A DNA stretch of 64,000 bases from Bryobacterales bacterium (GTDB taxonomy: Bacteria > Acidobacteriota > Terriglobia > Bryobacterales > Bryobacteraceae): assembly GCA_003164035.1 (NCBI GenBank), contig PLRS01000071.1, forward strand, positions 124,001 to 188,000, written 5' to 3'. The translations under genes and the position numbers were made by a program. The notes beneath the pieces were generated by a model. The model was given only the letters and a program-made list of their open reading frames with translations. It ran no database searches and was not told the origin of the DNA. Below, one piece after another: positions 11,122-20,879 of the stretch (its first letter is position 1; every line of letters starts with the position of its first letter).

Positions 11122-12068
11122 GCACGCGCAAACTGTTGGCGTCATTTCTATTGTTGGGCGCTGCGGCCGCGGCGCAGCCAGGGCAACTGAGCGGCCCCGT
11201 GGCCGGCTACGTGTACGACCGGACGGCCGCGGCTCTGCGGCCGGTTCGCGGCGTGCCGGGCGCAGCCACGCTGGGCGATCTGTTGGCGGTTCCTTACTCG
11301 CTGGAGGCTGGTTTTGTGGCGCCGCGCCAGGATCTGGCCGTGCTGGTTGCGACCGACGGCACCACCCATTGGATTGCCTTGAGCGGCCATGGCGCAACCG
11401 AAGTGGCGGCCCAAGGTTCGATCGCGACGCCCGAACGGGTGGTCTTCAGCCCGACGGGCACGGCGGCGGCGCTGGTCGCAAGCGATAGCGTGCAGGTGGT
11501 CACGGGGTTGCCTTCCAGCCCGGCGCTGGCCGGCAGCGTGACGCTGGCGCCGGATCGCCAGCCCGGCAGGGGCCGTCTGGCGGTGAGCGACGATGGCGCC
11601 TGGCTGTTGCTGGCCTCGGGAAACGGGCTGCGGCTGGTTGCGGTCGCCGGTGGCGGCAGCATTACCCTGATGCCCAATGGCCAGTCCGCCGCGGTGGCTT
11701 TTGCACCCGGCAGCCACGATGCGGCGATCGCGAGCGATGGCGCCGTCACCTGGATTCACGATGCCGCAGGCAGCGCCGTCCAGCAGGCGGTGGCGCAGAA
11801 CCCGGCCCTGGCTAGAGCGGTCGGAGTGGCGTTCTCGGCCGATGGCGCAACGCTCTACGCCGCCAACGCCACGGGTTCGATATGGAGCTTCGATCTGGCC
11901 GCGGGGACCGGCGTGCAACAGTCCAGCGGCGCCCTTGCGACAGGGCTGGAGCCCATGGGCGGGTTCTTCCGGCTGAACCAGGCCGGAGCCGGTCCGCTGT
12001 GGCTGGTCGATCCCAACGCCGGCTCGCCGCGGGTTTTCTTCGTCCCGCCCGCCCCTACTTCAAACTGA
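11118..12068 (+). CDS. Exported beta-propeller-like protein
   Basis: A 316-residue protein with a Sec signal peptide (KLLASFLLLGAAAAAQ). The rest is a run of degenerate WD40/lactonase-type blades, seen as repeated xVxFSPTGTAAALV, LAVSDDGAWLLLAS, VAFAPGSHDAAIAS, VAFSADGATLYAAN, separated by about 45 residues. No catalytic residues are recognisable. It is coupled to the Ig-like gene by an ATGA overlap and is convergent with the sigma-54 regulator gene, the two 3' ends overlapping by 14 bases. It may be a periplasmic scaffold or sensor; the function is unknown. Confidence 0.72.
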   Translation: MSTRKLLASFLLLGAAAAAQPGQLSGPVAGYVYDRTAAALRPVRGVPGAATLGDLLAVPYSLEAGFVAPRQDLAVLVATDGTTHWIALSGHGATEVAAQGSIATPERVVFSPTGTAAALVASDSVQVVTGLPSSPALAGSVTLAPDRQPGRGRLAVSDDGAWLLLASGNGLRLVAVAGGGSITLMPNGQSAAVAFAPGSHDAAIASDGAVTWIHDAAGSAVQQAVAQNPALARAVGVAFSADGATLYAANATGSIWSFDLAAGTGVQQSSGALATGLEPMGGFFRLNQAGAGPLWLVDPNAGSPRVFFVPPAPTSN

Positions 12069-13407
12069 ACTTCTTCATCTTGTAGCGCAGCGTGTCGCGG
12101 GTGACGCGCAGCAGGCGCGCCGCCTGGGTCTGGTTCCCGTTGGTCTTTTCCAGTGCGCGCACCAGCAGGTTTCGTTCGTGATCCTCGAGCGACATGCCGT
12201 CCACGGTGGCGGCCGCGCTTCGGCCGTCGAAGCCTGTGTCGGTAATGGGCGCGTATTCGGGCCGGCTGATGGAAATAGGCAGGCTGGCGGAATGGATCAG
12301 GGCCGACTCCTCCAGAATCATGGCCCTCTCGATGGCGTTGCGCAGTTCGCGCACGTTGCCGGGCCAGTCGTGCGAAAGCAGCAGCTTGGCCGCGTCGTCG
12401 CTGATCCCTTCGATGCTGCGCTTGAATTTGCGGTTGTAATGGTCGATGAAGAAACGCGTCATCGGCACAATATCTTCGCGCCGCTCGCGCAGCGGCGGAA
12501 TCAGAATCTGGATCACGTTGAGGCGGAAATAAAGGTCCTGCCGGAAGGCGCCTTCCTTGACCGCTTCGCGCAGGTTCTTGTTGGTGGCCGCCACCACCCG
12601 CAGATCCAGTTGGATGTCCTTCAAGCCGCCCAGCCGCCGGAAGCTCTGCTCTTCCAATACCCGCAGCAGCTTGGCCTGCAGCATCGTGGGGATTTCGCCG
12701 ATCTCGTCCAGAAATAGGGTGCCCTTGTCGGCCAGCTCGAATATGCCGCGTTTCTGCGAACGGGCGTCGGTAAAAGCGCCTTTTTCGTAACCGAACAACT
12801 CGCTTTCGAGCAGGGTTTCCGGAATGGCCGCGCAGTTGATCGCGATGAAGGGCTCGGCCTGCCGCAGGCTCTGGTAGTGGAGGGTCTTGGCGATCAGGTC
12901 CTTGCCGGTCCCGTTTTCGCCTTCGAGCAGGATGGTGGTGGCCTCGCTCGATGCCACCCGCCGCACGAAATTCACCACCTCGCGCATGCCCGGAGATTCG
13001 GCGATCACCTCGCGCCGCTCCGGCGAGGCTTCCTCGGTAACGTCCTTGATGGTCGCCACCACCCCGGTCAGCCGCCCCTGGTCGTCCAGCATCTGGGTGG
13101 TTTTCATCACCACCAGGCGTTCCAGGCCGTTATCGGTGTGCAGCCGGACGGTCGAATGCGGGGTCGAAGGCGCCTGGTTCAAACCCACCAGCATGCCGCA
13201 GCCAGGCTCGCACAGCGAGCACTTGAAGACTTCCTGGCAGTGCTTGCCCAGCATTTGGTCGGAGGAAATGCCGAAAAGCTTTTCGGCGGACCGGTTCACT
13301 CCCGTAATGCGGAATTCCGGATCGTAGAGGATCAGCGCATCGGAAAGCTGGTCAAACACCGCTTCCAGGATATTTACGCTTTGCCAACCTGGAGAAAGCT
13401 TCGACAT
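12055..13407 (-). CDS. Sigma-54-dependent Fis-family activator with PAS sensor
   Basis: A 450-residue enhancer-binding protein. Residues about 13-125 are a PAS domain containing CSLCEPGC (Cys63, 66, 70). Residues about 133-365 are the AAA+ domain with Walker A EGENGTGKD (162-170), Walker B LFLDEIGE and the loop GAFTDA (210-215), where the canonical loop is GAFTGA. Residues about 405-450 are a Fis helix-turn-helix (NQTQAARLLRVTRDTLRYKMKK). I chose the ATG at 13407, next to the PAS start; the frame is open for another 119 codons upstream over the promoter region. A sigma-54 promoter lies between it and the divergent cytochrome operon, its probable target. The PAS cysteines suggest redox or metal sensing, by inference. 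Confidence 0.9.
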   Translation of the reverse strand: MSKLSPGWQSVNILEAVFDQLSDALILYDPEFRITGVNRSAEKLFGISSDQMLGKHCQEVFKCSLCEPGCGMLVGLNQAPSTPHSTVRLHTDNGLERLVVMKTTQMLDDQGRLTGVVATIKDVTEEASPERREVIAESPGMREVVNFVRRVASSEATTILLEGENGTGKDLIAKTLHYQSLRQAEPFIAINCAAIPETLLESELFGYEKGAFTDARSQKRGIFELADKGTLFLDEIGEIPTMLQAKLLRVLEEQSFRRLGGLKDIQLDLRVVAATNKNLREAVKEGAFRQDLYFRLNVIQILIPPLRERREDIVPMTRFFIDHYNRKFKRSIEGISDDAAKLLLSHDWPGNVRELRNAIERAMILEESALIHSASLPISISRPEYAPITDTGFDGRSAAATVDGMSLEDHERNLLVRALEKTNGNQTQAARLLRVTRDTLRYKMKKFSLK

Positions 13408-13438
13408 GGATCGGTTATGGCTCCAATTATAACAGGCC

Positions 13439-13460
13439 GATTGAGCGAAATAGCGCAATC
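13439..13460. promoter_or_regulatory. Putative enhancer (UAS) dyad for the sigma-54 activator
   Basis: GATTGAGC-N6-GCGCAATC is an imperfect 8-base dyad with one mismatched pair. It is centred about 100 bases upstream of the -24 element at 13542, the usual place for a Fis-family enhancer site. A second dyad, GGGCGGG-N6-CCCGCCC, lies at 13472-13491. Confidence 0.5.
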
Positions 13461-13541
13461 TCGGAGCACTAGGGCGGGAATTGCCCCGCCCCGACGCCGC
13501 CAAACAGGCAAAAAAGTCTGAAATTGAACCGCTTACCCTGG

Positions 13542-13557
13542 TGGCGATGCAATTGCT
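13542..13557 (+). promoter_or_regulatory. Sigma-54 (-24/-12) promoter
   Basis: TGGCGATGCAATTGCT has GG and GC exactly ten bases apart and matches the TGGC...TTGCT form of the -24/-12 consensus. It ends 22 bases before the ATG of the small cytochrome gene and points toward the cytochrome operon. The activator gene is immediately divergent. Confidence 0.7.
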
Positions 13558-13578
13558 CTTTTCCCCGGTGGAGGCTAG

Positions 13579-13797
13579 ATGCCGCACCTCAAACTCACTC
13601 TTCCCGCCGCCATCCTGGCGGCCGGGTTCTTGATTTGCTCCATTGCGTCCTACGGGAAGCCGGAGTATACCAAGAGCACCAAGAAAGCCTGCACCTACTG
13701 CCATGTCGATGCCAAGGCGAATCCGAAAGCCCTGACCGATGCCGGAAAGTATTACTCCGAGCATAAGACCTTGGACGGATACCAGGACAAGAAATAG
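13579..13797 (+). CDS. Small exported monohaem c-type cytochrome-like protein
   Basis: A 72-residue protein with a Sec signal peptide (about 1-26, LPAAILAAGFLICSIASYG). Its one haem-binding motif is CTYCH, in KKACTYCHVDAKANPKALTDAGKYY. The mature part is only about 45 residues, short for a class I cytochrome c, and has no obvious distal Met, so an open or bis-His site is possible. The ribosome site is GGTGGAGG just upstream. It is the first gene after the sigma-54 promoter and probably an electron shuttle for the following multihaem proteins. Confidence 0.82.
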   Translation: MPHLKLTLPAAILAAGFLICSIASYGKPEYTKSTKKACTYCHVDAKANPKALTDAGKYYSEHKTLDGYQDKK

Positions 13798-13829: not shown

Positions 13830-14267
13830 ATGCTACAGACGGTCAGGCTTACGCTCTCCGATACCGCCTACGCCGCGGCGTTGCGAGACGCCCTGAACCA
13901 CACTTGCGCCTGGCATATCGACTCGGCCGCGAGTTCCGATCCGGGGCAGCCGTCGGTGCTGGTGCTGGACGATACCGCATTGGCCCGCCTGCCCCTCCCT
14001 CTGTCTCACCCCGAATGCATCGTATTGATCACCCACAAGAATTCCGAACGCATGGCGCAGGCCTGGGATGCGGGCATCGTTTCGGTGGTCGGTTGGGACG
14101 ATTCCATGGATACCGTCTTGCTGGCGATCATGGCGGCGGCGCTACGGATGCCGGTTTCCCACTCCCCACGCGCGGCACACGCAATTTCCCCCAATCCCGC
14201 GCCAGTCCCTGCGTCAATAACCCCAATTAGCCACCGTCCCAGCCGTAAGCGTTGCAAAACACAATAA
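13830..14267 (+). CDS. Receiver-like (degenerate response-regulator fold) protein
   Basis: About 145 residues. The pattern VRLTLSDTAYAAALRDAL...SVLVLDDTALARL...ECIVLITHKNSERMAQAWDAGIVSVVGWDDSMDTVLLAIMAA has the strand-helix rhythm of a receiver or pseudo-receiver: LVLDD at the beta-3 position, VLIT at beta-4, AGIVSVVGWDD at beta-5. It lacks the beta-1 acidic pair and the beta-5 Lys, so phosphotransfer is unlikely. The C-terminal 40 residues are low-complexity Pro/Ser. Start may be GTG 13809 (GTGGAGG there could instead be the ribosome site) or ATG 13830. It sits between cytochrome genes in the same direction. Confidence 0.55.
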   Translation: MLQTVRLTLSDTAYAAALRDALNHTCAWHIDSAASSDPGQPSVLVLDDTALARLPLPLSHPECIVLITHKNSERMAQAWDAGIVSVVGWDDSMDTVLLAIMAAALRMPVSHSPRAAHAISPNPAPVPASITPISHRPSRKRCKTQ

Positions 14268-14381: not shown

Positions 14382-14654
14382 ATGAACTTTTTTTTCGCAA
14401 TTTGGATCCTCATGGCGGTGGGTGTGGCGGGACTGATTGTATACCGCCGCCACATCGCCAGCCAGGAAGATGACGTCTTGCACTTGGGCGCCTCGAGCGG
14501 TGCTGTGGCGCAGCAGAGCACGGTAGCGCAAAAGCTGGACCAGGTGGACAAATGGGGCAAAACTCTGACCATAATCGCGGTTGCGTATGGGTTCGTGCTG
14601 GTCGCGATTTACTTCTATCGGTTTTGGGTGTCGAGCTCCACGACGGGGATTTAG
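14382..14654 (+). CDS. Small two-helix membrane protein
   Basis: A 90-residue protein with an N-terminal helix (MNFFFAIWILMAVGVAGLIVY), a polar middle (about 22-58, rich in Gln and Ser) and a second helix (LTIIAVAYGFVLVAIYFYRFW). No family is recognised. GGAGG precedes the ATG by six bases, and TATAAA at 14346-14351 could be a separate promoter. It is followed four bases later by the nine-haem cytochrome gene, so it is a likely small subunit or assembly factor of that complex (inference). Confidence 0.75.
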   Translation: MNFFFAIWILMAVGVAGLIVYRRHIASQEDDVLHLGASSGAVAQQSTVAQKLDQVDKWGKTLTIIAVAYGFVLVAIYFYRFWVSSSTTGI

Positions 14655-14658
14655 GGCT

Positions 14659-16305
14659 ATGCGAAACCGGGCTTTCCAGACGATACCCGGGGGGCTCGGT
14701 TTCGCCATCCTCGGTTTTCTTGTAGTTTTTGTAGTTTTTGCGGGCGCCAACGCCTGGGCGGCCGCTCCGGCCAAAGCCAGTTGCACAGACTGCCACGAGC
14801 AGGGCGCCAAACTGGCCAAAAGCGCCCACGCCGGGCTCACCTGCGATACCTGCCACCAATCTCACGATCAGTATCCCCACCCGGCCAATATTCCCAAACC
14901 CGTATGCGGCAATTGCCACACCGACCAGGCCGGCGATTACTCCCAGGGCGTGCACGGACAGGCCCGCGCGCACGGCAATGAAGGCGCGCCGGATTGCGCC
15001 CTCTGCCACGGCAGCGCCCACGAGTTGCTTTCGCCGAAATCCCAAGCGTTTCGCGCCGGCGTGCCGGATACCTGTGGCATGTGCCACAGCGACGTAGTCG
15101 ACCAGTACCGGGCCAGCATCCACGGGCAAGCGCTGGCCAGGGGCGTTTCCCAGGCCCCCCTGTGTACCGACTGCCATGGCGAGCACAACATCATCAAGCA
15201 CACCAGCGCCGCTTCTCCGGTGAACGCCGCCCATATTCGCGATACCTGTGGAAGCTGCCACGGCAACGTCCGCCTGAACAGCCGTTTCGGTTTGCCCACC
15301 GACCGCATGGTCAGCTTCGATTCCTCCTTCCACGGCCTGGCTGCCAAAGCCGGCATGCAGACCGTCGCCAATTGCGCCAGTTGCCACGGCGTTCACGACA
15401 TTCTGCCGTCTTCCGACCCCAAGTCCACCATCAATCCCAAAAACCTGCCCAAGACCTGCGGGCGATGCCATCCCGGCGCCGGCGAACGCTTTGCCATCAG
15501 CCAGGTACACGTCTCGGAAAACGGCGCCGAGCCTGCCCCGTTGCGCTTCGTGCGCAGCACCTATCTCCTCCTCATCCCGGTCACCATCGGGCTCATGCTG
15601 CTGCACAATGCCGGCGATTGGCTGCGCAAGCTGATCCGCAACCGCTTCCGGAAGGCGGCGCGAATCTCCGGCCCGGCCGGCCACACCGGTCCGCGCATGC
15701 TCCCGTTCGAACGCATCCAGCACGCCGTCATGGCGATTTCCTTCCTGATCCTGGTCTGGAGCGGTTTTGCGCTCAAATACCCGGACCACTGGTGGGCTCG
15801 CCCCTTGTTGGGGATGGCCGGTACGCTCTCGGTGCGCAGCCTGGTTCATCGCTCGGCCGCCGTGGTGTTCATCCTGATTGCCGTCACCCACGCGGTTTCG
15901 CTCGTCGTGAGCCGCAAACTACGGGAACACTGGAAGGAAATGTGGCCGAACCGCAACGACCCGCGGGAAGCCATGGCCAATTTCGCGTACAATCTAGGAC
16001 TGGGAGACACGCCGCCCGGCCGCTCGTCGCACAGCTATATCGAGAAAGCCGAATATTGGGCCGTGATTTGGGGCGCCGTGGTGATGGCCTCCACCGGAAT
16101 TCTGCTCTGGGCCAACAATATCGCCATGCGCATTTTGCCTAAAGCCTGGCTGGACGTAGCCACTTCCGTGCATTTCTACGAAGCCGTTCTGGCTACCCTG
16201 GCCATTGTCGTCTGGCACTTCTATTCGGTGATTTTCGACCCCGACATCTATCCGCTGAACACCGCCTTTCTCAACGGCAATCGAGAGGAAAATCCGCAAA
16301 AATGA
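14659..16305 (+). CDS. Nine-haem cytochrome c fused to a b-type membrane domain
   Basis: A 548-residue protein with signal or anchor (about 10-35), then a periplasmic part with nine CXXCH motifs (CTDCH, CDTCH, CGNCH, CALCH, CGMCH, CTDCH, CGSCH, CASCH, CGRCH) between about 42 and 280. The C-terminal half has a helix at about 297-315 and then a four-helix region like cytochrome b561/formate-dehydrogenase gamma: FERIQHAVMAISFLILVWSGFALKYP, RSLVHRSAAVVFILIAVTHA, AEYWAVIWGAVVMASTGILLW, SVHFYEAVLATLAIVVWHFY, with haem-b His candidates. It should carry electrons from quinol across to the c-haems, or the reverse. Its stop overlaps the NapC-like start (ATGA). Confidence 0.9.
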   Translation: MRNRAFQTIPGGLGFAILGFLVVFVVFAGANAWAAAPAKASCTDCHEQGAKLAKSAHAGLTCDTCHQSHDQYPHPANIPKPVCGNCHTDQAGDYSQGVHGQARAHGNEGAPDCALCHGSAHELLSPKSQAFRAGVPDTCGMCHSDVVDQYRASIHGQALARGVSQAPLCTDCHGEHNIIKHTSAASPVNAAHIRDTCGSCHGNVRLNSRFGLPTDRMVSFDSSFHGLAAKAGMQTVANCASCHGVHDILPSSDPKSTINPKNLPKTCGRCHPGAGERFAISQVHVSENGAEPAPLRFVRSTYLLLIPVTIGLMLLHNAGDWLRKLIRNRFRKAARISGPAGHTGPRMLPFERIQHAVMAISFLILVWSGFALKYPDHWWARPLLGMAGTLSVRSLVHRSAAVVFILIAVTHAVSLVVSRKLREHWKEMWPNRNDPREAMANFAYNLGLGDTPPGRSSHSYIEKAEYWAVIWGAVVMASTGILLWANNIAMRILPKAWLDVATSVHFYEAVLATLAIVVWHFYSVIFDPDIYPLNTAFLNGNREENPQK

Positions 16306-17738
16306 CCCCACCGCCGAGTCAGGGCCGAGGATGGCTCTCCCCCTATATCCATCTTTCCAGCAACTGGGTCAGCCTGCTCGGCGTGATCCTGGTCACCTCG
16401 GCCACCGTGTTCTGGCTCTTCCTGCTGCCCACCACGCTACGGGGCGGAACCGAGAGCCCTTACATCGGCATCCTGGTCTTCATGGTGTTGCCGGCGCCGT
16501 TCTTTGCCGGCTTGGTGCTGATTCCGCTGGGCATCTGGCGGCAGCGCCGCGCCGACCGGCGGGCGCAGCTCTGGCCCGCCGCCTTTCCGCCGCTCCGCTG
16601 GAGCAATCCGGAGCTCCGCAAGCTGGCCTATTTCGTCATCTTCACCACCGCGGTCAATATCATCGTGGCCAGCCAGCTCAGCTACGGCGCCGTCAATTAC
16701 ATGGATTCGGTCACCTTCTGCGGCCAGACCTGCCACACCGTGATGCAGCCCGAGTACACCGCCTACCAGCAGTCGCCGCATTCGCGCGTCGAGTGCGTCA
16801 AATGCCACATCGGTCCCGGCGCGTCCTGGTTCGTGCGCAGCAAGCTGTCCGGCGTGGGACAGGTCTTTGCCGTAACCTTCCACACTTACCCCCGGCCGAT
16901 TCCGACGCCGGTCCACAACCTGCGCCCGGCCCGGGAAACCTGCGAAACCTGCCACTGGCCCCAGAAATACGGCGAGGACCGCCTGCGCGTGATCAATAAA
17001 TATGCCGACGACGCCACCAATTCGCTTACCAAAACCGTCCTGCTGATGAAGATCGGCGGCGGCAACCACGGCATCGGCATTCATGGCACCCACCTCGGGG
17101 TGGGCATACACATTCGCTATGGCCACTCCGACGAAGCCCGCCAGAACATTCCCTGGGTGGAATACGACAACCAGGGCGCTAAGACGGTCTATGCCACCAA
17201 AGACGCCCAACCGGCCGGCCTCACCATGCGGGAAATGGACTGCATGGACTGCCACAACCGCCCCTCCCACAGCTTCGAGCTGCCGGAGCGGGGCCTCGAC
17301 CGCGCCATGGGTTCCGGCGATGTTTCCCCCAACCTGCCTTTCGCCAAGAAAGAGGGCCTCGAGATTCTGAAGGTGAACTACCGCTCGCGAGAGGAAGCCG
17401 CGAGCAAAATTCCGGCCGCTTTCGCCGCCTTCTACCAGCAGAATTACCCGGAAATCTGGGCTAGCCGGCGCAGCGAAGTCACCTCCTCGGCCAACGGCGT
17501 GCTAGCCATCTATGATCGCAATATCTTCCCGGAGATGAATGTCACCTGGGGCAAGTATCCGATCAACGTCGGTCATACCGATTCCCCGGGCTGTTTCCGC
17601 TGCCACGACGGCTCTCACAACGCCCCCGCCGGCCAGGCCATCACCCAGGATTGCAACGCCTGCCATAACCTGCTCTCGATGGATGAAGCCAATCCCAAGG
17701 TCCTGACCGACCTGGGAATCACGGAAACGAAACCGTAA
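16302..17738 (+). CDS. NapC/NirT-type multihaem cytochrome c
   Basis: A 478-residue membrane-anchored cytochrome. Three hydrophobic segments (about 22-44, 56-78, 105-125) precede a periplasmic domain that starts with VTFCGQTCHTVMQPEYTAY, followed by RVECVKCHIGPGA, the NapC/NirT hallmark. There are five CXXCH motifs (CVKCH, CETCH, CMDCH, CFRCH, CNACH), and the first site is a CX3CH (CGQTCH). The protein is larger than NapC or NrfH and has two extra membrane segments. It probably oxidises quinol and passes electrons to the nine-haem protein encoded just upstream. It ends the cytochrome operon; no terminal reductase gene is in the window. Confidence 0.88.
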   Translation: MTPPPSQGRGWLSPYIHLSSNWVSLLGVILVTSATVFWLFLLPTTLRGGTESPYIGILVFMVLPAPFFAGLVLIPLGIWRQRRADRRAQLWPAAFPPLRWSNPELRKLAYFVIFTTAVNIIVASQLSYGAVNYMDSVTFCGQTCHTVMQPEYTAYQQSPHSRVECVKCHIGPGASWFVRSKLSGVGQVFAVTFHTYPRPIPTPVHNLRPARETCETCHWPQKYGEDRLRVINKYADDATNSLTKTVLLMKIGGGNHGIGIHGTHLGVGIHIRYGHSDEARQNIPWVEYDNQGAKTVYATKDAQPAGLTMREMDCMDCHNRPSHSFELPERGLDRAMGSGDVSPNLPFAKKEGLEILKVNYRSREEAASKIPAAFAAFYQQNYPEIWASRRSEVTSSANGVLAIYDRNIFPEMNVTWGKYPINVGHTDSPGCFRCHDGSHNAPAGQAITQDCNACHNLLSMDEANPKVLTDLGITETKP

Positions 17739-17880: not shown

Positions 17881-18219
17881 ATGGGAACGGAGAAAAACAG
17901 AGAAGACCTGTTACCGGGAACGCTCGACATGCTGGTGCTCAAAATATTGATGAGCGGCCATTTGCACGGATACGCAATCGCGCAACTGATCCAGCAACTA
18001 TCCGACGATCTCCTGCGCGTGGAGGAAGGCTCGCTCTATCCGGCGCTGCAGAGGCTCGAACTGAATGGATGGATTACGGGCGAGTGGGGCCTGTCGGCGA
18101 ATAATCGACGGGCTCGCTTCTACCAACTGACGCCCGATGGGCGAAAGCGACTGGCGGAGGAGTCGGCCCGCTACAGGCGGGTAACGGGCGCGGTCGCTCG
18201 GATTATGGGGTTCGCTTAA
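17881..18219 (+). CDS. PadR-family transcriptional regulator
   Basis: A 112-residue winged-helix repressor. The family signature is LLPGTLDMLVLKILMSGHLHGYAIAQLIQQ, followed by EEGSLYPALQRLELNGWITGEWG (recognition helix and wing) and the dimerisation helix. It is of the short PadR-s1 type. As in many acidobacteria it directly precedes a giant MacB/FtsX permease gene (20 bases apart), so the permease is the likely target, possibly together with autoregulation. The effector is unknown. Confidence 0.92.
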   Translation: MGTEKNREDLLPGTLDMLVLKILMSGHLHGYAIAQLIQQLSDDLLRVEEGSLYPALQRLELNGWITGEWGLSANNRRARFYQLTPDGRKRLAEESARYRRVTGAVARIMGFA

Positions 18220-18239
18220 GGGGGGACTACGGAGATCGC

Positions 18240-20879
18240 ATGCGGGCAGGTTCCAGTTGGAAACGCTTTCGACGCCGTTTACGGTTTTTGCTCGCCCATA
18301 GCGAGCGGGAGCGGCTGTTGTGGGAAGAGATGGAGTTTCACATCGAGTCATTGGCTCGAGACTTCGCCGCGCAGGGCCTGTCTGAGGTGGAAGCGCGCGC
18401 GGCGGCAAGGAGAAAGTTCGGCAATATGGCGCAGAAATCGGAAGAATCCCGCAGCGTGTGGTTGGTTCGTTGGTGGAGCGATCTGGCACAGGATCTGCGT
18501 TACGCGTTTCGGGGGATGCGGCGCGATGCCGGGTTTACAGTGTTTACGATCCTCATCGCCGGCCTCGGCATTGGGGCCAGTTCGACTGTGTTCAGCATGG
18601 TGAACGCGCTCCTGCTGCGCCCCCTCCCGTTCCGCGATCCGGGCCGTCTGGTCTGGATTGCGAACCAGGAATGGTCCACTCAAGTGAGCAACTTCCTGGA
18701 CCTGCGGGAGCAGAATCACTCCTTCTCCGATCTGGCCGGGTGGTCCGGCGGTGGCACCGGAGCCTGGCAATTGACGGGCACCGGCGAGCCGGAACGGGTG
18801 ACGGGCGTTCCCGTGACTCAGAACCTTTTTCCGCTGCTGGGAGTTGAACCGGCGCTCGGGCGGTCGTTCACAGCAGACGAATGCCGGCAAAAGGATTACG
18901 CTCCTCAGGCCGTGCTTCTCAGCTACGGCTTTTGGCAACGGCGGTTCGCTTCAGACCCCTCAGTGGTGGGCAGCAAGTTGATATTCAACAATCGCGCCGT
19001 CACCGTGGCGGGCGTGCTGCCGGCCTCTTTCGACTTCGCCGCACTATTCGCGCCCGGCACGCCGGTGGATATCTTCATTCCCTGGCCGTTGACGGACGAA
19101 ACGAACCGGCGAGGCAATACCATGACGATCGTCGGCCGGTTGAAGCCCGGCGCTACGGTAGAGGCCGCACGTCCGGAATTCATTCAACTGGCAAAACAGA
19201 TGGAGATCCAGCATCCCCCTCCCGAACGGAATCCCGTCGTTCCGAGGCTGACTCCGCTCGATCAACGCATCAATGGGCGCGTTCGGCCGGCCTTGCTGGT
19301 GCTGGCTTGCGCGGTCGGCGTCGTGATGTTGATTGTGTGCGCGAACCTCTCGAATCTGCAGTTGGCCCGTATGGGAGCGCGGCAAAGGGAGCTGGCAATG
19401 CGGGCGGCGCTGGGCGCGGGGCGTCTTCGCCTGCTGCGGCAGATGTTTACCGAAAGCATCGCGCTCTCCTGTTGCGGCGCGGTGCTGGGCCTCGCTCTCG
19501 CGCTGGCCGGCGCACGCGCGGTGGCGCATCTGAGCGCCTTCAATCTTCCCTTGCTAACCGGCGTGCGCATCGACGGAAACGTGCTCGCTTTCACGCTGGT
19601 CGCGGCCGTTCTTACCGGCGTCCTATTCGGGGTGTTGCCTGCGCTTCAGGCTCCCGCATTAGAGATGCAGGACGCGCTGAAAGAGGGTGGCCGCGGGCTG
19701 AGCGCCGGCAAGCGTCGTGCCTGGCTGCGCAACGGATTGGTGGTTTCCGAGATCGCCTTCGCCTCGGTTTTGCTGGTGGGCGCGGGTCTCCTGGTGCGCA
19801 GTTTTGTTCGCGTACTCGACGTCAATCTAGGTTTTGAACCGGAGCACACGGCGGTCTTGCGGGTCGATCCGGGGACCAGGATTTCGAGCCTCGCTCGACA
19901 GAACGCTTTCCTCGATGACATGCTGCGGAGGGCGCGATCGATTCCGGGCGTCCGGGCGGCGGGAGTGAGCGACGTTTTGCCGTTTGCCGGAGACCGGTCG
20001 TGGCAGGTCGGCGCAAAGGGACATGTTTACCCGAAGGGCCAATATCCTCCTGAACCCTACATTCGGATGGTCAGCGACGGATACTTCGCGGCCGCCGGGA
20101 TCCGTTTAGAAGCCGGCCGCGGATTCACTGAGCAGGATCGTGCATCGAGCGAACCGGTCGTGATCGTGAACCAGACTTTCGCCCGCACCTTGTGGCCTGC
20201 ACAAGACCCGATCGGACAAGCGGTGACCCAGGACGGGGGCCGGCGGGTGGTCGGCGTGGTGGCCGACATCCGTCACGAAGCGCTGGAAAAAACGGGCGGG
20301 TCCGAGATGTATATTCCGCTGCGGCAGACCGGAGACTATTCCGACATCGAACTGGTGGCGCGAACGACGCTGCCGAGGGAAGTATTCGCATCGGGAATTC
20401 GAACGGCGCTGCGGCCGCTGGATCCAAATCTGCCGATTCGCGAAGTCCGAAGCCTGCAGGATTTGGTGGATAAAGCGGTGTCTCCGCGACGCTTTCTCGT
20501 CATGCTGCTCGGCGGATTCGCGGCCTTCGCGCTGGTGCTCGCTTCGCTGGGCATCTATGCGGTGATTTCGTATTCGGTAAATCAGCGGGTGCAGGAAATC
20601 GGAATTCGGATGGCGCTGGGGGCGTCGCCGGCCGAGTTGCAACGTCGTATCCTTTTGCGCACGTTCGGATTGGCGGCGTTGGGGCTCGCGTTGGGCATGG
20701 CGGCGTCGCGAGCGTTGTCGAACACGCTGGGGAGCCTGCTGTTCGGCGTGACCTCCGGCGACCCGGTCACCTATGTGGGCGTTGGTGCGTTGCTGATCGT
20801 GGTTGCGGCGGTAGCCGGATACATTCCGGCCTGGCGCGCCTCGCGGATCGATCCCATGGTCGCGCTGCGGTCGAATTGA
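18240..20879 (+). CDS. Acidobacterial duplicated orphan permease (ADOP), MacB/FtsX type
   Basis: An 879-residue permease made of two MacB-type halves. After a cytoplasmic helical lead (MEFHIESLARDFAAQGLSEVEARAAARRKFGN, typical of ADOPs) comes helix FTVFTILIAGLGIGASSTVFSMVNALLLRPLP, then a periplasmic MacB-core, three FtsX helices (about 360-480), a second signal-like helix (about 498-520), a second core, and final FtsX helices (about 755-870) with the motif EIGIRMALGASPAELQRRIL. No ATPase gene is adjacent, which is normal for this family. It is in an operon with padR. Export of toxic compounds or lipids is inference. Confidence 0.9.
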   Translation: MRAGSSWKRFRRRLRFLLAHSERERLLWEEMEFHIESLARDFAAQGLSEVEARAAARRKFGNMAQKSEESRSVWLVRWWSDLAQDLRYAFRGMRRDAGFTVFTILIAGLGIGASSTVFSMVNALLLRPLPFRDPGRLVWIANQEWSTQVSNFLDLREQNHSFSDLAGWSGGGTGAWQLTGTGEPERVTGVPVTQNLFPLLGVEPALGRSFTADECRQKDYAPQAVLLSYGFWQRRFASDPSVVGSKLIFNNRAVTVAGVLPASFDFAALFAPGTPVDIFIPWPLTDETNRRGNTMTIVGRLKPGATVEAARPEFIQLAKQMEIQHPPPERNPVVPRLTPLDQRINGRVRPALLVLACAVGVVMLIVCANLSNLQLARMGARQRELAMRAALGAGRLRLLRQMFTESIALSCCGAVLGLALALAGARAVAHLSAFNLPLLTGVRIDGNVLAFTLVAAVLTGVLFGVLPALQAPALEMQDALKEGGRGLSAGKRRAWLRNGLVVSEIAFASVLLVGAGLLVRSFVRVLDVNLGFEPEHTAVLRVDPGTRISSLARQNAFLDDMLRRARSIPGVRAAGVSDVLPFAGDRSWQVGAKGHVYPKGQYPPEPYIRMVSDGYFAAAGIRLEAGRGFTEQDRASSEPVVIVNQTFARTLWPAQDPIGQAVTQDGGRRVVGVVADIRHEALEKTGGSEMYIPLRQTGDYSDIELVARTTLPREVFASGIRTALRPLDPNLPIREVRSLQDLVDKAVSPRRFLVMLLGGFAAFALVLASLGIYAVISYSVNQRVQEIGIRMALGASPAELQRRILLRTFGLAALGLALGMAASRALSNTLGSLLFGVTSGDPVTYVGVGALLIVVAAVAGYIPAWRASRIDPMVALRSN

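Follow-up and report, generated by a model that had tools for sequence, protein, structure and literature searches.

The analyzed window, a stretch of 64,000 nucleotides from a Bryobacterales genome, contains an intergenic region (13408-13578) which divides the minus-strand gene of an enhancer-binding protein (EBP) from a plus-strand cytochrome operon (Table 1). A small first gene comparable to that of the monohaem cytochrome is found in many relatives, though not in all, and the gene of the small membrane protein has its equivalent in the same location in many relatives as well. The product of the second gene remained without match in a Pfam search. Its AlphaFold model (mean pLDDT 77) retrieved the DctD receiver as top Foldseek match (E 4e-4, TM 0.56), and the matches at E ≤0.001 comprised the DctD and FixJ receivers, a CpaE-like protein, and a cryptic TIR; D11 and D47 of this receiver-like protein are unchanged across 16 homologues.

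Table 1. Position and characteristics of the genes and predicted regulatory elements at the EBP-cytochrome locus.
Feature	Position	Strand	Characteristics
Enhancer-binding protein (EBP) gene	12055..13407	-	450 aa; PAS, sigma-54 AAA+, Fis-type HTH; PF08448, PF00158, PF25601, PF02954
Predicted extended -10 element of the EBP gene's own promoter, TGTTATAAT	13426..13434	-	between EBP gene and site 1
UAS site 1 (candidate), TTGAGCGAAATAGCGCAA	13441..13458	.	core of dyad 13439-13460; scores 16.1 bits with the palindromic motif
Possible UAS site 2, core GCGGGAATTGCCCC (13474-13487)	13472..13489	.	G/C-rich; its centre follows that of site 1 at 31 bp
Predicted sigma-54 -24/-12 promoter, TGGCGATGCAATTGCT	13542..13557	+	GG-N10-GC; predicted transcript start ~13568
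Shine-Dalgarno, GGTGGAGG	13567..13574	+	opens predicted ~11-nt leader; GGAG unchanged in 14 sequences
Small monohaem c-type cytochrome, gene 1 of operon	13579..13797	+	72 aa; CTYCH
Stand-alone receiver-like protein, gene 2	13830..14267	+	start chosen from homologues
Small membrane protein, gene 3	14382..14654	+	90 aa; 2 hydrophobic segments
CbcL-like nonahaem c-type cytochrome fused to cytochrome b domain	14659..16305	+	9 CX2CH, then hydrophobic regions; PF14522, PF01292
ImcH-like NapC/NirT-type cytochrome	16302..17738	+	1 CX3CH + 5 CX2CH; PF03264

The two large cytochromes were classified as CbcL-like and ImcH-like by published architecture rather than by sequence comparison with the Geobacter proteins. 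According to the accessible text of two studies (PMC6295460, PMC9129911), CbcL of Geobacter sulfurreducens combines nine CX2CH motifs with a cytochrome b domain. In the same texts, ImcH has three membrane helices at its N terminus, then a CX3CH and further CX2CH motifs. Both overall plans are found in the operon. In the CbcL-like protein, nine CX2CH precede a HydC/FdnI-like cytochrome b domain, in which a crude hydropathy scan recognized about five hydrophobic regions past residue 290, the published CbcL plan having six helices. A formate-dehydrogenase gamma model matches this protein as well, with a score under its cut-off. The ImcH-like protein shows three N-terminal hydrophobic regions and then CGQTCH in an equally crude hydropathy and motif scan, which corresponds to the three N-terminal helices, adjoining CX3CH, and 5-9 CX2CH given for ImcH in the accessible part of PMC6295460. 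Searching both large cytochromes against PDB sequences returned zero matches at E 0.01. As far as these sources describe the Geobacter proteins, the arrangement here differs in that both genes are adjacent in one operon alongside a receiver-like protein.

The original prediction had named the divergent neighbour a PAS-AAA-Fis activator, which the Pfam domains confirm (PF00158, E 3.5e-69; PF02954, E 1e-15). EBP orthologues, defined by matches with E <1e-170 above a clear gap, occur in 24 of 61 genomes including the window's own, and share 62-83% identity with the window protein. Within the alignment of 23 orthologues the HTH is strongly conserved, and the loop GAFTDA is unchanged throughout; it is named among the GAFTGA variants said to retain activation in the available portion of PMC4641369. 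Equally unchanged in 23/23 are four cysteines of the PAS domain (57, 63, 66, and 70; C-x5-C-x2-C-x3-C), therefore the signal may be of redox, Fe-S, or metal nature and be read by these residues. The genome harbors a single rpoN gene for sigma-54 (one PF04552 match, E 5.7e-56). Named EBP equivalogs of NCBIfam (NifA, PrdR, NtrC, and others) did not reach their cut-offs, with NifA scoring best among the 25 matches listed (375 vs 529 bits). Three viral matches with 43-44% identity, extending over the AAA+ region and in one case (L249) also over the HTH, were taken as generic and set aside.

A -24/-12 promoter with exact GG-N10-GC spacing had been proposed at 13542-13557, and these coordinates proved exact. 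When the 171-bp stretch was shuffled 2000 times and one strand searched, 0.45% of the shuffles contained the strict pattern TGG-N8-TTGCW. A looser pattern allowing up to two mismatches was at chance level across the window (48 found vs 56.6 expected). For the comparison between genomes, the region upstream of the EBP gene could be read in 23 of the 24 genomes, G035 ending at a contig border. Oriented away from the EBP gene, the strict promoter occurs in 18 of these 23 regions (window included), in each case exactly once within 700 nt. It is present in all 17 genomes whose operon begins next to the EBP gene (G005 and G017 showing only the first gene or genes before the contig end), where it points away from the EBP gene. 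The eighteenth region belongs to G028, in which only the small membrane-protein gene adjoins the EBP gene. The remaining five regions are without the strict pattern: in G010, G026, and G032 the operon is not adjacent to the EBP gene; in G033 only a membrane-protein-like gene adjoins it; and in G021 the receiver-like gene is adjacent, the cytochrome gene lies ~8 kb past the EBP gene, and a GGG variant of the promoter is visible by eye. As background, 116 kb of neighbouring sequence (both strands) contained the strict pattern six times; in the upstream regions themselves, the other strand was free of it.

An intergenic alignment of 14 same-layout sequences, the check suggested for the original prediction, showed the TGG and AATTGC of the promoter to be unchanged at a mean column identity of 47%, together with the core bases of the palindrome described below. 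These data bear on the alternative that an ordinary sigma-70 promoter drives the operon and the -24/-12 match is accidental. One sigma-70-like match of 9/12 was indeed found on the plus strand (13401-13430; shuffles average 0.3), but it sits at the end of the EBP gene, ~150 bp from gene 1. Although two relatives, considered below, have no -24/-12 before gene 1, the invariance of TGG and AATTGC at such low overall identity and a frequency of the strict pattern far above background make this explanation very improbable.

The upstream part of the prediction consisted of a dyad, GATTGAGC-N6-GCGCAATC, at 13439-13460, again with exact coordinates and with 7/8 pairs complementary. This quality of dyad is reached with a loop of 6 in 5% of 2000 shuffles and with any loop of 3-10 in ~30% of 300. 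Being near chance in a single sequence, it was therefore not relied on by itself, and conservation was decisive. De novo motif discovery on the 23 EBP-upstream regions delivered an 18-bp palindrome, nTGGGnGAATTCnCCCAn. Its likelihood score was 231, and four shuffled sets gave 43-52 (150 seeds were used with the real set and 60 with each shuffled one). Copies above 13 bits are found in 21 of the 23 regions (window included; all except G021 and G032), whereas only 2 of 920 shuffled 300-mers contained one. The core of the predicted dyad is such a copy and represents site 1. It is among the weaker ones in terms of score. The bases T, G, G ... G, C, C, A of this site show no variation across the 14 aligned sequences.

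The dyad had been placed about 100 bases upstream of the promoter; the distance from the palindrome to -24/-12 in the window is ~92 bp. All 14 sequences have 89-94 bp between palindrome centre and promoter, except for L157 with 114 bp. Helical phasing over this distance was considered and found unconvincing (p 0.13, 0.24, and 0.04 at 10, 10.5, and 11 bp; 20 hand-copied values, two from unlinked operons). The original prediction had not included further targets elsewhere, the extended -10 at 13426-13434, or a second, weaker palindrome at ~13472-13489. When the sequences were searched downstream of site 1, the best palindrome lay at a centre distance of 29-34 bp in 12 of 14, a count made without shuffle control; scored with the site-1 motif, this possible site 2 reaches <4 bits in the window and 14.6 bits in L145.

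A second locus set, obtained by a scan with the CbcL-like protein, comprised 34 closer loci (L145-L178, acidobacterial except L177) and 46 more distant ones (L179-L224). The EBP is divergently encoded in 23 of the 34 closer loci, five of which (L149, L152, L155, L159, and L177) repeat contigs of the first genome set. Twenty-one of these 23 have the promoter and 20 both the promoter and a palindrome of ≥12 bits. Non-conservation in relatives keeping the genes had been named as refuting evidence for the original prediction; -24/-12 and dyad are conserved there, the exceptions being L166 and L167 for the promoter and L158, whose promoter is present, for the palindrome (not above 12 bits). Among the 11 closer loci without EBP in reach, of which four have <1.4 kb of upstream sequence, the promoter-palindrome pair was found in two, L164 (= G026) and L171. 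None of the 46 distant loci showed the pair, and the strict promoter was present within ≤4 kb upstream in 11 of them. The two exceptional related Bryobacterales, L166 and L167, retained the EBP and rpoN as well as the palindrome, which scores 18.8 and 15.9 bits, respectively. They show TGG-N10-GCT ahead of gene 2 and a -10-like TGTATnAT ~20 bp past the palindrome, a constellation possibly reflecting a change of sigma factor use.

At genome level, a CbcL-like gene was detected in 22 of the 24 genomes with an EBP orthologue vs 6 of the 37 without. In G028 and G026 the operon and the EBP gene are located on different contigs, and the operon is preceded by promoter and palindrome (19.3 and 19.1 bits, respectively). 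The unlinked CbcL-like gene of G010 has a strict promoter and a palindrome of 9.4 bits, that of G033 (45% identity) neither; G021 combines a strict promoter with 11.1 bits. Within genomes lacking an EBP orthologue, both elements (13.9 bits) are found in G039 (64% complete), a strict promoter and 7.5 bits in G059, and neither element in G030, G058, and G060. Two apparent -24/-12 sites are present in the unlinked operon of G026 (L091). The receiver-like gene follows one of them; the other, accompanied by the palindrome, precedes the membrane-protein gene.

Extension of the search to the window's own genome yielded 15 exact palindrome matches, 13 of them in L100-L114, the loci covered by the promoter scan (L225 and L226 being left out of it). 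This led to a ferredoxin gene (L103) whose ATG lies 27 nt past a strict promoter and to a TGG-N10-GCT ahead of a radical-SAM gene (L107); L105, L109, and L113 have loose promoter matches. Ferredoxin genes of the genome set were parsed in 27 of 30 cases. In the clade of this ferredoxin (17 parsed genes), nine have a strict promoter, 12 a palindrome, and eight both (one palindrome at -388), while neither element is found in G010, G025, G026, and G059. Promoter and palindrome were each found in 0 of 10 parsed housekeeping ferredoxin paralogues. By eye, a GG-N10-GC outside the strict pattern is also present at the ferredoxin genes of G012, G015, G029, and G033, which were not counted. The radical-SAM gene belongs to family TIGR04053 (447 bits vs cut-off 395). 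Its loci were parsed in 14 of 21 cases with a looser promoter pattern (TGG-N9-TGCW) that had no chance control: four carry both elements (G000, G001, G020, and G021), G012 the palindrome only, G003 the promoter only, and the other eight neither. The EBP appears to activate this ferredoxin gene, located apart from it, as well as the TIGR04053 radical-SAM gene of some species. On one contig (G012:C388), the clade ferredoxin and TIGR04053 radical-SAM genes diverge around one palindrome.

What the sequences show directly is that these elements are present, conserved, and linked; from this we infer, with a probability of roughly 90%, that 13408-13578 is the regulatory region of a sigma-54/EBP circuit driving the inner-membrane cytochrome operon. 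The divergently encoded EBP would bind the palindrome at 13441-13458, as suggested by position and co-conservation, and probably also the second, weaker palindrome three helical turns (31 bp) downstream. Upon a signal, putatively of redox or metal nature, it would build its AAA+ ring, loop to the sigma-54 RNA polymerase at -24/-12, ~92 bp away, and drive open-complex formation. This would switch on the operon and, with it, the monohaem cytochrome, the receiver-like protein, the small membrane protein, and the CbcL-like and ImcH-like quinone oxidoreductases. Very probably, it would also be this EBP that activates the unlinked ferredoxin gene as well as the radical-SAM gene, the latter in some species. 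Since site 1 lies at ~-30 of the predicted promoter of the EBP gene, EBP expression would probably be adjusted as well.

The most serious alternative, in our view unlikely, concerns the owner of the palindrome, which might be another transcription factor co-regulating the EBP gene and the operon, with the EBP working elsewhere or via a weaker site. Assignment of the palindrome to the EBP is indeed indirect, and the palindrome is phased to the predicted promoter of the EBP gene as would be the site of a classical regulator (see below). In addition, genome-wide palindrome counts, tried as a test of EBP dependence, were similar in genomes with and without EBP and thereby uninformative. However, the palindrome is located upstream of -24/-12 at several targets, some of them unlinked, at distances typical for enhancers, and the EBP with its strongly conserved HTH is the recurrent neighbour.

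The palindrome may also control the EBP gene itself. In the 14 aligned sequences, A22, A25, and T26 of the predicted extended -10 are unchanged, and A27, C29, and A30 are conserved to ≥90%. A -35 was not found for this promoter, and a consensus scan requiring a -35 box did not report the -10. The centre of site 1 is at -30.5 from the predicted EBP transcript start. In the 18 genomes scored, the palindrome centre is located at ~-30 (seven), ~-39 (three), ~-50 (seven), and, in G003, at -57.5. These hand-copied values are in phase (R 0.72 at 10.5 bp; p ~0.0004 vs uniform for periods 9.5-11.5, uncorrected for relatedness). G001 and G011 were left out for a weak -10, and G016, G021, and G032 for having no usable site; G001 would be in phase. 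Some loci of the second set differ, for example L145 with the palindrome at -97.5 and L174 with the palindrome on the other side. The position of the palindrome near a conserved extended -10 suggests autoregulation.

A model for such a dual role is available in E. coli, where pspF and pspA are divergently arranged. According to the available part of PMC3709507, binding of PspF to its enhancer, which comprises two UASs at pspA, stimulates the sigma-54 promoter and represses the sigma-70 promoter of pspF. The site at -30 is compatible with autorepression of the PspF type; with the palindrome at -50, the effect might be of either sign. In contrast to PspF, which is held by PspA in that description, the likely input here would be the PAS domain, and autorepression is proposed by analogy.

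EBP control of an inner-membrane cytochrome bc operon is represented in Geobacter by BccR-cbcBA. Among the cases considered, the closest is found in Desulfovibrio vulgaris, where, according to the accessible text of PMC4641369, the one-component EBP DVU3142 is encoded divergently from the ohcBAC octahaem cytochrome operon, for which the sigma-54 promoter is conserved and EBP sites were predicted. Both systems share a divergent EBP and a multihaem cytochrome operon, and DVU3142/ohcBAC is likewise a comparative prediction. They differ in phylum, in the cytochromes, and in the loop (GAFTGA in DVU3142, GAFTDA here); a four-cysteine PAS domain and a ferredoxin target are not mentioned for DVU3142 in the accessible text.

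The type of switch is thus already known, while the small regulon itself was not found described, and the sensor is possibly new. Neither such a regulon for Acidobacteriota nor this circuit appeared among the literature matches listed, judged by titles and abstract starts. As a tentative and rather speculative extension, a redox/metal-sensing EBP family of Bryobacterales-type Acidobacteriota might couple sigma-54 transcription to the cellular electron-transfer state. Its targets might be the operon of the paired CbcL/ImcH quinone oxidoreductases, a dedicated ferredoxin, and, depending on the species, a radical-SAM gene resembling haem synthases; the receiver-like protein might act on the EBP as a feedback partner. 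If true, low-potential or extracellular electron transfer would have a sigma-54 regulon of its own. The PAS domain with its four cysteines is a specific candidate for the sensor. In any case, a single motif call was extended to a small predicted regulon with exact sites in genomes of >20 genera, mostly of uncultured soil bacteria. It thereby becomes possible to ask by experiment under which circumstances Acidobacteriota produce CbcL/ImcH-type cytochromes, which bears on anaerobic or metal-linked respiration in soil.

In the wider surroundings, the region just past the cytochrome operon (17881-20879) hosts what we take to be a PadR-like regulator, followed by a large FtsX/MacB-like permease. 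On the other side of the EBP gene, the product of 7632-8711 matches the photosynthetic reaction-centre cytochrome family CytoC_RC (PF02276, E 1e-11).
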